Positions 8,088 through 32,061 of a stretch of 32,931 nt of DNA are shown in pieces. The DNA is from Klebsiella pneumoniae (lineage in GTDB: Bacteria > Pseudomonadota > Gammaproteobacteria > Burkholderiales > SG8-39), in NCBI GenBank assembly GCA_945906755.1, contig CAMDRJ010000014.1:1-32931 (forward strand), given 5' to 3'. Position 1 is the stretch's first letter. Each line of letters starts with the position of its first letter. The notes under the pieces were generated by a model. It saw nothing but the letters and a program-made list of their open reading frames with translations, was not told the DNA's origin and did not search any database. The position numbers were made by a program, and so were the translations under genes.

Positions 8088-8954
8088 TCAGGCGGCGATC
8101 GCGACATCCGACGATTTCAGCATTGCAGCGACACTCGCCAAGCCCGTTTCGTCGATGCCAAGTTCATTGGCGACCAGCGCTTTGCCGGCAGCCCATTCGC
8201 GGTGCGGCTTACCGGTCTGCTGCATCGATTGAATTTGATCGGCGAGTATCCCCACAGCGATTAGTCGTGCGCCCGCTTTCGATGGTGCCGGTCGACCAGC
8301 GGCTAAATTCGGCGCGTCATGATGGCTGAAAATCGCTTCACAAATTACATCAGACAACTGCCAGCTTTTGGCCAACACCCCACCAATATTCGCGTGATTG
8401 GTCGGAAAGGAAGCACTTTCGACTTCCACCATGCTTTTGTTGGGCGGCACCGCCTCGCCGGTGAAGAGGCCTCGGTAGTTAGGAAATTTGATCAGCATGA
8501 TCGCCTGCCCGCAATCGCGAAATAGCCCGTAGGTGTAGGCGACATAGCGATCGACCTGTACCACCATCGGCGCAAGGGCCGCGCTGTACGCCGCGGTCGT
8601 TGCCGAGTTGCGCCAGAACGCCTCGATGGAATTGGATTGACTGACCGGAAATGACCCTTTAAGAAGCAGGCTCGATACCAGCATCGATGTTGCACGCATG
8701 CCCAACACGGCGAACGCTTGCTGGACCGTGCTCACCTTCGACTTGAGCGCGAACATCGACGAGTTGGCGGTCTTCAATACCGCCGCGGCCAATCCGGGGT
8801 CGGATCCGATCAGATCGGCAAGGCGCCTCATATCGGCATCGTCCTTGCGCATTTCCTGCATGAACTCAAGAACGATCTTCGGACACGGCGGAATGCCGAT
8901 CGCGCGGACGATCTTTTCGGTTTCAGCGTCGATATCGATGGCGCTCGTGGTCAT
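8088..8954 (-). CDS. HDOD domain-containing protein
   Basis: IPPCPKIVLEFMQEMRKDDADMRRLADLIGSDPGLAAAVLKTANSSMFALKSKVSTVQQAFAVLGMRATSMLV... typical of HDOD proteins. Confidence 0.88.
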   Translation of the reverse strand: MTTSAIDIDAETEKIVRAIGIPPCPKIVLEFMQEMRKDDADMRRLADLIGSDPGLAAAVLKTANSSMFALKSKVSTVQQAFAVLGMRATSMLVSSLLLKGSFPVSQSNSIEAFWRNSATTAAYSAALAPMVVQVDRYVAYTYGLFRDCGQAIMLIKFPNYRGLFTGEAVPPNKSMVEVESASFPTNHANIGGVLAKSWQLSDVICEAIFSHHDAPNLAAGRPAPSKAGARLIAVGILADQIQSMQQTGKPHREWAAGKALVANELGIDETGLASVAAMLKSSDVAIAA

Positions 8955-10968: not shown

Positions 10969-12606
10969 CTAAAGCGTTCCTCGTTCGCGAAGATCCCGAT
11001 CGCTAAAATCCCGATCGCTAAAATCAATCACGATATTGCCCGCATCATCACATCCAGCCTGCGCACCCGGCGGAATGACGCAGGTTGAATCGTATTCCTC
11101 GATGATCAACGGCCCGCTACGCGTTGATTGCAGCGCCGCACGGTGCACGATCGGGGTGTCGAGCCAGCCATGGGTTCGGCCGAAATAGGCGCGGCGTGAG
11201 GCTGCGGCGCTGCGTTCTTTCCGCGTTGATCGGACCTTTTCGGGAACACTCGGACGAGCCCTGAGTCCTTCGCCGACGACCTGAATGGCGACAGGTTCCA
11301 CCGGCTCATCGGGCCCGGCACGATGCCCATAGGTTTTTTCATGCTCCTTGCCGAAGGCCTCTTCCAGGTGGGCGGCCAGCGCGGCGTCCAACTTCAGCGC
11401 ACCGCCGACGAGATGCTTCGGATTGAGATAACCCAGCACGACATTCGCATCGGTGATGGTGGGAATCGTGCCGCCCTTGCCGTAACAGACCGGGCCGGGA
11501 TGCGCCCCGGCACTTTCGGGGCCAATCTGCATGGAGCCCGCGGCGTCGATCCAGATATGCGAACCACCCCCTGCACCCACTTCGGCCAGATCAATCGCGG
11601 GTACCTTAAGTGTGTAGCCGGCGCCGGTGAGGAGGCGCGAGCCGATCATGATGCCCGCGCCGACCGAGTATTCGCTCGCGCGACTCACCGCGCCGTCTTC
11701 GACCATTGACGCTTTCGCGGTGGTCCCGCCCATGTCGAACGTGATGATCTTTGGCAGTCCTTTCGCGTGTGCCAGTGCCTGCGCCCCCACCACGCCGCCG
11801 GCCGGACCGGACTCGATGATATTCATCGGGCGTTCGATCGCCGCGAGATCGGTAGTGAGTCCGCCGTTTGATTGCATGAGCAGGATCCGTGCGGGAATGC
11901 CGGCATCATTCAATCTTTTGCGCAGCGACTGCAGATAGCGCGCCACGATCGGCATGACATAGGCATTGACCACCGTTGTTGAGGTGCGTTCGTATTCCTT
12001 GATTTCAGGCAGGACTTCAGCGGAGACACTGAGCGGCAAGTCGGGTGCTTTGCGGTGAACCATGGCCTTGATCGCCAACTCGTGCACCGGATTGGTAAAG
12101 GAATTGATCAGGCAGATTGCCATCGCCTCAACCCGTTCGGCGAGCAGTGCATCGATTTGTCGGATGGCATCGGCTTCATTCAGCGCGCGCTCGATGTGGC
12201 CACGTGCATCGATCCGCTCATCGACGACTCGGCGCAGATAACGTTCCACCAAGGGGACCGGCTTGGTCCATCCCATGTCGTAGAGCCGCGGCATGCGTAG
12301 CGTTCGTATTTCCAGGATGTCGCGAAAGCCTTTGGTGGTGATGAGACCTACGCGTGCGCCTTTTTGCTCGAGGATTGCGTTCGATGCGACGGTGGTGCCA
12401 TGACGAATCTCCTCGATCGCCGTGCCATCCAAGTTCGTTTCGCGAAACAATTCGGCGAGCCCTTGGACGATGGCGCGCGCATAGTCGTCGACGCTCGAGG
12501 AGATTTTCTTGGTATGGATGCTGCCGTCATCACCCAGCAGCACGATGTCGGTGAAAGTCCCGCCGATATCGACGCCGACGCGATAAGTGATCATCGCATC
12601 ACGCAC
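10969..12606 (-). CDS. hyuA: hydantoinase/oxoprolinase subunit A (HyuA-like), apparently shortened internally
   Basis: ITYRVGVDIGGTFTDIVLLGDDGSIHTKKISS..., MNIIESGPAGGVVGAQALA, ITFDMGGTTAKASMVEDG, GAHPGPVCYGKGGTIPTITDANVVLGYL; then LDAALAAHLEEAFGKEHEKTYGHRAGPDEPVEPVAIQVV without the expected intervening core. 545 aa. Confidence 0.85.
   Translation of the reverse strand: MRDAMITYRVGVDIGGTFTDIVLLGDDGSIHTKKISSSVDDYARAIVQGLAELFRETNLDGTAIEEIRHGTTVASNAILEQKGARVGLITTKGFRDILEIRTLRMPRLYDMGWTKPVPLVERYLRRVVDERIDARGHIERALNEADAIRQIDALLAERVEAMAICLINSFTNPVHELAIKAMVHRKAPDLPLSVSAEVLPEIKEYERTSTTVVNAYVMPIVARYLQSLRKRLNDAGIPARILLMQSNGGLTTDLAAIERPMNIIESGPAGGVVGAQALAHAKGLPKIITFDMGGTTAKASMVEDGAVSRASEYSVGAGIMIGSRLLTGAGYTLKVPAIDLAEVGAGGGSHIWIDAAGSMQIGPESAGAHPGPVCYGKGGTIPTITDANVVLGYLNPKHLVGGALKLDAALAAHLEEAFGKEHEKTYGHRAGPDEPVEPVAIQVVGEGLRARPSVPEKVRSTRKERSAAASRRAYFGRTHGWLDTPIVHRAALQSTRSGPLIIEEYDSTCVIPPGAQAGCDDAGNIVIDFSDRDFSDRDLRERGTL
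10993..11025. repeat. 15-bp direct tandem repeat inside the hyuA 3' end
   Basis: atcccgatcgctaaa x2 followed by atc; gives the repeated peptide (FSDRD) in HyuA ...DFSDRDFSDRDLRERGTL. Confidence 0.9.
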
Positions 12607-14406
12607 TCAGCGAATCGGCGTGTTGGGTTCATCGCGCTGCACGGTCGGCACTTTCGTCCATCCGCGTGCTTGTCGAATCGATTCGCGAAGAACCTGTGTT
12701 TGCGCTTCGTTGACGGTCCAACGCTCGGTATCCAACACGACGCCATAGTCCTGCCGTGCTTTCGCGGTCGATAGGAATTCATTACGCACGTCTTTCAGCA
12801 CGGCGAGCGGGTCGCGTTTGAGCGGATCGCCCCAACCACCGGCGCCTGCGAGCACATGCCGCAATACATCGCCCTTCTTCACCGTCATCGTGAACTTACC
12901 GGGTAGTGGCCGACCCTCGATATCCGGATTGAGATAGTTCTCGGAGGGGCTGCCCGGATTGCCGCCGTAGAGTCCAAACGGCCGATGATCGCGGCGATCG
13001 GAGCGGACTTGCAATGTGCCTTCCAGCTCATTGAATCGATAGTCGCGCTTGAAGGGGACCCCGCCGCGGTACTCGCCGGCCCCGGCCTTATCGGAGACGA
13101 ATTCATAGGCAAGGAGCGAAACCGGATGCTCCGCTTCAGTGACCTCGATCGATTGCGAGGCCATATTGGCAAACATATGCGAATTGCCGTCGAGCCCATC
13201 TGCCCATGGCCGCGCACCCCATGCGCCGCAGGTGAAATCGACATATACGAAGGGCTTGCGATTGGCGTCATAGCCACCGATCGAGACACCTGAATTGCCA
13301 CCGTCGCCGGCGGCCATCACCTTGTCGGGCAGCATCATCGCGAGCACGCCGAACATGCAATCGACCATCCGAAAGCCGGTCAGGCCACGTGCGGCGCAAG
13401 CCGCCGGCAGCACCCCATTGCCAATCGTTCCCGGCGGGCAGATGACTTCGATCGCCCGAAACACGCCTTCGTTATTCGGAATCCCCTGCGGCAGGACGGA
13501 GCGCACGCCGGTGTACGCGGCGGCTTTGGTGAATGACAGCGTGTTATTGATCGCGCCTTTGACTTGCGGACTCGTGCCGGTCCAATCGACGATGATCTGA
13601 TCGCCGCGTTTAGTCAGCGTAACAAACAGCCGAATCGGTTTGCCATAGTCGATGCCATCATCGTCGATCCAGTCCTCAAACGACCACTCGCCATCGGGGA
13701 GCTTGGCAATCGCCGCGCGCGTCAGCCGTTCTGCATAATCGATCGTTTCCGCCATGAATTGCTTGGTTTCTGCCGCCCCGAATTTTGCGATCAGATGGGA
13801 AAACTGCGTCTCGGCGATATGACATGCGGCAAGCTGTGCGCGCAGGTCACCGGCGACTTGCACCGGCAAGCGCACGTTCTTCTCGATGAACGTCATGACG
13901 GTGCGGTTGAGCTTGCCGGCTTCGTAAAACTTGAGCGGCGCGATACGCAGCCCCTCGGCATAGATTTCAGTGGAATCCGATGCGTTGGACCCCGCCACGC
14001 GACCGCCTACATCGCTGTGATGGCAAACAGTGCAGGCAAACGCGACGCGTTCACCAGCGTGATAGAGCGGTTTGAACACAAAGATGTCCGGCAAATGCAT
14101 GCCGCCATCAAATGGGTCATTCATGATGAACACATCGCCTGCGGCCATGTCGTGTGCATAGTGACGCATGATCGAAGCCATGGCAGTTGGCACGGACCCG
14201 AGATGCCCCGGCAAGGTGAGCCCCTGCGCGACCAGCTTGCCGCTCGCATCGGCGATGCCGGTCGAATAGTCCATGTTGTCTTTCAGCACGCCTGAGTAGG
14301 TCGTGCGAAACACCGTCAACGCCATTTCATCGGCGATCGAAAAGACCGCGTTCTTAAACAGTTCGAACGCGATTGGATCGCGCGTTGCCGACATCGGATT
14401 GTCCAT
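12607..14406 (-). CDS. hyuB: hydantoinase/oxoprolinase subunit B (HyuB-like)
   Basis: MDNPMSATRDPIAFELFKNAVFSIADEMALTVFRTTYSGVLKDNMDYSTGIADASGKLVAQGLTLPGHLGS...GDVFIMNDPFDGGMHLPDI...; apparently complete. ORF extends upstream to 14586, but homologous start is near 14394-14406. Confidence 0.92.
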   Translation of the reverse strand: MDNPMSATRDPIAFELFKNAVFSIADEMALTVFRTTYSGVLKDNMDYSTGIADASGKLVAQGLTLPGHLGSVPTAMASIMRHYAHDMAAGDVFIMNDPFDGGMHLPDIFVFKPLYHAGERVAFACTVCHHSDVGGRVAGSNASDSTEIYAEGLRIAPLKFYEAGKLNRTVMTFIEKNVRLPVQVAGDLRAQLAACHIAETQFSHLIAKFGAAETKQFMAETIDYAERLTRAAIAKLPDGEWSFEDWIDDDGIDYGKPIRLFVTLTKRGDQIIVDWTGTSPQVKGAINNTLSFTKAAAYTGVRSVLPQGIPNNEGVFRAIEVICPPGTIGNGVLPAACAARGLTGFRMVDCMFGVLAMMLPDKVMAAGDGGNSGVSIGGYDANRKPFVYVDFTCGAWGARPWADGLDGNSHMFANMASQSIEVTEAEHPVSLLAYEFVSDKAGAGEYRGGVPFKRDYRFNELEGTLQVRSDRRDHRPFGLYGGNPGSPSENYLNPDIEGRPLPGKFTMTVKKGDVLRHVLAGAGGWGDPLKRDPLAVLKDVRNEFLSTAKARQDYGVVLDTERWTVNEAQTQVLRESIRQARGWTKVPTVQRDEPNTPIR

Positions 14407-31178: not shown

Positions 31179-32061
31179 GTGGAAGCCCTGCTAGGACAAC
31201 TGGTCAGCGTCGCGTTTCATGGCACGGCCTTCGGGATGATTCTCTATGTCATCTCGGTCGGTCTGTCGGTGACGATGGGCCTCATGGGGTTTGCCAATCT
31301 CGCGCATGGTGTGTTCGCGATGGCAGGTGGATACGTCATGTTGTCCATGATGAATGCCTATGGGCTGCCGTTTCCGCTGGCCCTCGCCATTGCGTTCGTT
31401 GCAGTGGCCTTGGGCAGCATCGTTTTGGAGCGGCTGCTCTACGCCAAGCTGTATGCGGCCGGGGAACTCGCGCAAGTGCTGTTTACGATTGGTTTGATTC
31501 TCATGGCGATCGCCGTGGCGCGCCTCCTGTACGGTACCTTGCAGCAGCCGGTCAATCTGCCCGATTACATGAAGGGGCAATTCCATTTGCTTGGCCGCGA
31601 TTTCCCGGCCTATCGTGTGATTGTCATTTTGTTCAGTCTCACGCTGGTGCTGCTGCTTTGGTTCGGTGTCGAGCGCACGCGCTGGGGCGCGATGCTGCGG
31701 GCCACCGTCGACAACCGCGCCATGGCGCAATCGATCGGCATCAACACCTCCAGACTCTTCACGCTCACCTTTGCGCTGGGCTCCGGGCTCCGGGCTCGCG
31801 GCAATCGGTGGCGGCATGGGCGCCGAATTGCTCGCGATCCAACCGACCTACCCGTTTGAGCACCTCGTCTTTTTCCTGATCGTCGTATCGGTCGGTGGCA
31901 TGGGCACCTTGCGCGGGCCCTTTGTGGCCGCGCTGCTGATCGGTGTGACCGATACCGCATGCAAGTATTGGCTGCCGCAATTTGGCGCGTTCTTTATCTA
32001 TGCGGCGACGATCGCGATCCTGCTATGGCGACCGGCCGGTCTCTTTGGAAAGGCGGCCTGA
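31179..32061 (+). pseudogene. livH: branched-chain amino acid ABC transporter permease LivH, frameshifted by a 7-bp tandem duplication
   Basis: Frame 1 gives MEALLGQLVSVAFHGTAFGMILYVISVGLSVTMGLMGFANLAHGVFAMAGGY...LFTLTFALGSGL then RARGNRWRHGRR and stop at 31859. The expected GLAAIGGGMGAELLAIQPTYPFEHLVFFLIVVSVGGMGTLRGPFVAALLIGVTDTACKYWLPQF...GLFGKAA continues in another frame to 32061. Confidence 0.88.
31778..31797. repeat. 7-bp tandem repeat (gggctcc) at the livH frameshift
   Basis: gggctcc-gggctcc-gggctc; removing one unit restores ALGSGLAAIGGGMGAE. Confidence 0.93.

Follow-up and report, generated by a model that had tools for sequence, protein, structure and literature searches.

The closest described systems are the caprolactamase CapAB of Pseudomonas jessenii (PDB 6yra, PMC8453981) and an N-methylhydantoinase (PDB 7hk5, 9h03). 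In CapA, an ASKHA ATPase module (residues 1-84 and 242-494) carries an inserted domain and is followed first by an alpha+beta domain at 495-610 and then by a barrel at the C-terminus, and the subunit docks CapB via a helix at 418-438 and a loop at 553-560 (PMC8453981). The ATP-signature motifs of the family have been defined as phosphate 1, phosphate 2 and the adenosine motif GxxPGP (PMC8453981, PMC5214803). Here we analysed a stretch of 32,931 nucleotides of DNA, hereafter the window, which carries a hyuA-like ORF for the alpha subunit of an ATP-dependent lactamase/hydantoinase (10969..12606, minus strand; 545 aa). The encoded protein belongs to the same family as CapA and has the same domain order, the three ATP-signature motifs are conserved, and the gene for the partner subunit is adjacent. 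However, the protein is internally deleted: it aligns to CapA residues 5-402 and then again to about 567-687, while CapA about 401-571 has no counterpart. What is absent thus comprises the last stretch of the ASKHA module, up to 494, and the greater part of the alpha+beta domain, and both the CapB-docking helix and the omega loop lie inside the lost block.

The retained N-terminal part (residues 1-412; 11371..12606, minus strand) and the retained C-terminal part with its barrel-like domain (residues 413-545; 10969..11370, minus strand) meet at 11370/11371, where in the translation GGALKLDAALAA abuts HLEEAFGKEHEKTYGHRAGPDEPVEPVAI. The junction could also lie up to about 18-21 nt further towards 11391, since GACGCCGCGCTGGCCGCC partly matches both block flanks in the sister species. 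The sister (G001, that is L097/L013, where L097 is an 8.2-kb contig of a MAG of the same genus, also G001:C64) is the nearest relative, and compared with its DNA 507 nt, exactly 169 codons, are missing from the window gene. All 62 intact orthologs carry the block, 59 of them with 169 residues and 3 with 168, and 55 ortholog-invariant positions fall inside it. Pfam profiles located the same gap: Hydant_A_N (PF05378) is whole at residues 9-184 (profile 1-173 of 176, 163.5 bits), Hydantoinase_A (PF01968) stops at 217 of 291 profile positions, having started at 1, and Hydant_A_C (PF19278) gave no match at E<=0.001. By comparison, the intact ortholog L045 has all three domains, with Hydantoinase_A reaching 290 of 291 and Hydant_A_C at residues 518-685. 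Thus, the initial annotation, which had described a HyuA lacking an in-frame core segment and had proposed profile alignment and ortholog comparison at the junction as checks, was borne out by both of these and by the DNA of the sister, although the about 150 residues that it had estimated proved to be 169. It was likewise right that a core motif is missing, but not in the NANMARAIR-type wording that it gave; the clade form is SNMIRAIKxVSTERGRDPRxFxLFAFGGNGPLFA (SNMIRAIK.VSTERGRDPR.F.LFAFGGNGPLFA).

The lost SNMIRAIK motif is none of the three published ATP-signature motifs. These lie outside the missing block and are all present, as DIGGTFTD (phosphate 1, residues 13-20), DMGGT (phosphate 2, 291-295) and GAHPGP (adenosine, 367-372), so that loss of the ATP motifs could be ruled out. 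No remnant of the block was found within the window hyuA gene, and a search of the other contigs of the same genome with the DNA of the sister did not find it either; at the protein level the matches in that genome were only paralogs, at 40% identity or less, or pieces at contig edges, which ruled out a block that had moved elsewhere. At the 3' end of hyuA (about 10999-11030, minus strand) a 15-nt tandem duplication, giving FSDRDFSDRD, makes the tail longer than that of the sister. An Rfam scan of the whole window returned no matches.

A scan of GTDB species genomes yielded 80 loci in genome contigs. Direct joining of the two block flanks was found in none of the 80, and wherever a contig holds both flanks the block stands between them. 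Nor did a junction-spanning DNA match turn up in any of the 97 other genomes of the family (98 were searched, including the one that carries the window). The initial annotation had reasoned that a short form common to many relatives would speak for a functional variant rather than decay; such relatives were searched for and none was found, a clade-wide short form is ruled out by the 80 loci, the 62 intact orthologs and the 97 genomes, and, as far as the searched collections show, the short form is private to the window assembly. Other MAGs hold HyuA orthologs that are broken at places different from the window junction, at residues about 316-357 (L103:5001-6963), about 297-318 (L105:5001-7029) and about 185-201 (L118:1016-3056). 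A search of the literature on hydantoinase pseudogenes found nothing relevant.

We consider it likely that this hyuA ortholog was hit by a recent in-frame deletion of 507 nt, which would have inactivated a dispensable, paralog-rich enzyme, and that the window operon is most likely an early-stage pseudogene and not a new minimal version. As in a pseudogene, the lesion deletes conserved invariant positions and is absent from functional orthologs, and the genome holds eight other intact HyuA-family genes. The product would keep its ATP-contact motifs, and since the deletion removes the HyuB-docking elements together with the last part of the ATPase module and the bulk of the alpha+beta domain, folding, pairing with HyuB and substrate activation would most likely fail; on sequence comparison and structure prediction, HyuA activity has most likely been lost. 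Between a minimal variant and a decaying enzyme, the two readings that the initial annotation had put forward, the unique short form, the lesions of the sister and the lost invariant and docking residues favoured decay.

The sister operon is itself damaged, at other places. The window HyuA and that of L097 are 91% identical over residues 2-327, and the gene order and both flanks of the window hyuA are collinear with the sister contig. The sister hyuA retains the block, which places the window deletion after the split of the two species, but it has a 1-nt frameshift near codon 327, and 7 of the 177 invariant sites of its N part are changed, against a mean of 0.7 in the orthologs. Its hyuB (L097:352-1565) has lost residues about 91-277 (about 187 codons) together with a change of frame, and it is also interrupted by an in-frame stop near 1479; the deletion takes out the positions aligned with the CapB metal ligands H99, D102 and H124. 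An HDOD-domain gene on the same contig (L097:5700-6562) is both frameshifted and interrupted by an in-frame stop, unlike its intact window copy (8088-8954); with this neighbour also broken, contig-level sequence errors on L097 are possible. Among the matches listed, however, the HyuA paralogs of G001 are uninterrupted and at least 695 aa long, so the assembly is not error-ridden throughout. Judged by its sequence, the sister hyuBA is broken independently of the window deletion, and that one operon is damaged differently in each of two sister lineages suggests that it is dispensable.

In the window, the remainder of the operon bears almost no trace of decay. None of the 177 ortholog-invariant positions of the HyuA N part and 1 of the 16 of its C part (L438P) is changed. 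In pairwise comparison with the sister, the N part has a dN/dS of 0.08-0.10 and the C part one of 0.23; hyuB has 0.08-0.16, and the flanking gor-like and helicase genes lie at 0.04-0.06. Relaxed selection on the HyuA remainder was not detected by these measures. The partner gene (12607..14391, minus strand; start taken at MSATRDPIAFEL..., with a longer 659-aa ORF beginning upstream) is intact, as the initial annotation had suggested: Hydantoinase_B (PF02538) is complete (1-519 of 519), 1 of 289 invariant positions is changed, and the residues aligned with the CapB metal ligands D41, H99, D102 and H124 are all present. These patterns indicate that purifying selection acted on the operon up to the very recent past, and because the HyuA and HyuB remainder is almost fully conserved, the lesion, if real, is young. 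The open conserved frame and the intact HyuB fit a young lesion, but they fit retained function or a wrong assembly equally well, and the in-frame state, a one-in-three chance, is by itself no evidence of function.

The deletion probably arose between short imperfect direct repeats, the codons for LDAALAA and IDAAMVA, which lie one deletion length apart. The window junction bases match both arms of the sister imperfectly over about 18-21 nt (query bases 83-100). A strong repeat at the deletion ends can be ruled out: the mean longest run there is 3.7 nt against 3.2 at control offsets, with 12 nt in one ortholog, and many control offsets give repeats at least as strong as this short and imperfect one. 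The repeat-mediated route is plausible, suggested by the sequence of a repeat that is unexceptional by this measure.

An artefact of assembly or strain mixture, in which the real gene is of full length and the contig skips the 507 nt through a mis-join or a minority deleted strain, would be an unlikely source of the short form, although the genome assembly, at 91.9% completeness, is a draft in 381 contigs, and the rest of hyuA and hyuB is free of any decay. The same contig also carries a 7-nt duplication that breaks another gene, a livH-like permease, near 31790. There, the branched-chain amino acid permease gene (PF02653; 31179-31900, plus strand) is frameshifted at a GGGCTCCGGGCTCCGGGCTC run with an apparent extra 7-nt unit, coding resumes in the next frame (GSGLAAIGGGMGAELLAIQPTYPF), and the window contig apparently bears either a further lesion or a sequence error here. 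Against an artefact at hyuA stand the collinearity with the sister contig in gene order and on both flanks and the absence of the block, noted above, from the other contigs; moreover, in the sister the similarity between the deletion ends is limited to an imperfect repeat about 20 nt long, too little for k-mer collapse. We infer that the window assembly is probably correct at the deletion.

That the short protein is a functional minimal HyuA, still binding ATP and either functioning in the absence of the docking helix or using a new partner, is very improbable, even though its three ATP-signature motifs are kept, its frame is open and its retained parts are strongly conserved. The short form occurs in no other genome searched and the sister species has lost the enzyme too. 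In the model of a full ortholog, the block holds helices 407-422, 426-450, 468-479 and 520-540 and strands 460-464, 483-486, 503-514, 548-558 and 565-569 of the second ATPase lobe, all gone from the short form. AlphaFold2 predicted the remaining lobe to be of low order, with residues 308-411 and 430-465 below 50 pLDDT. Structure prediction, also proposed as a check in the initial annotation, agreed with the loss, as pLDDT and pTM fell from 75.3 and 0.74 for the full ortholog to 56.9 and 0.50 for the short HyuA with a similar alignment, and the TM-score of the predicted models to CapA from 0.80 to 0.47; the AlphaFold2 runs used shallow clade alignments and count as supporting evidence only, weak on stability. 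We give hardly any credence to a real, expressed minimal HyuA that would bind ATP without the docking and alpha+beta parts, alone or with a new partner. Supply of the missing piece in trans by another gene, a split arrangement with, for instance, a paralog fragment, is barely conceivable: the genome does have two partial HyuA genes, on C316 (446 aa) and C285 (261 aa), but they are just 30-54% identical to the block and both run off contig ends (C316, 4526 nt, match to 4526; C285, 5138 nt, match to 5136), so that they are ruled out as complementing fragments, being genes merely cut by contig ends.

With a recent inactivating deletion as the preferred reading, the finding is most likely an ordinary one, a lesion in a single member of a large enzyme family that is already known. 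It carries a caution: annotation would take such an ORF, open and in frame and with its ATP motifs intact, for a functioning hydantoinase subunit, although the window HyuA is missing about a quarter of what the normal protein has. The sister pair, each species with its own lesions in this operon, also offers a small example of the repeated loss of a dispensable, paralog-rich enzyme. Set against the known systems, the N-methylhydantoinase is the best sequence and structure match for both window subunits; it has A and B fused in one chain of 1288 aa, unlike the separate genes of the window, and the window HyuA aligns to its residues 3-402 and 570-687, the segment aligned to 403-569 being absent. 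Full-length clade orthologs such as L045 and L061 are 70-82% identical to the window HyuA and have hyuB directly upstream. Together with L097, the clade orthologs all keep the block of 168-169 residues, and the window copy alone is without it.
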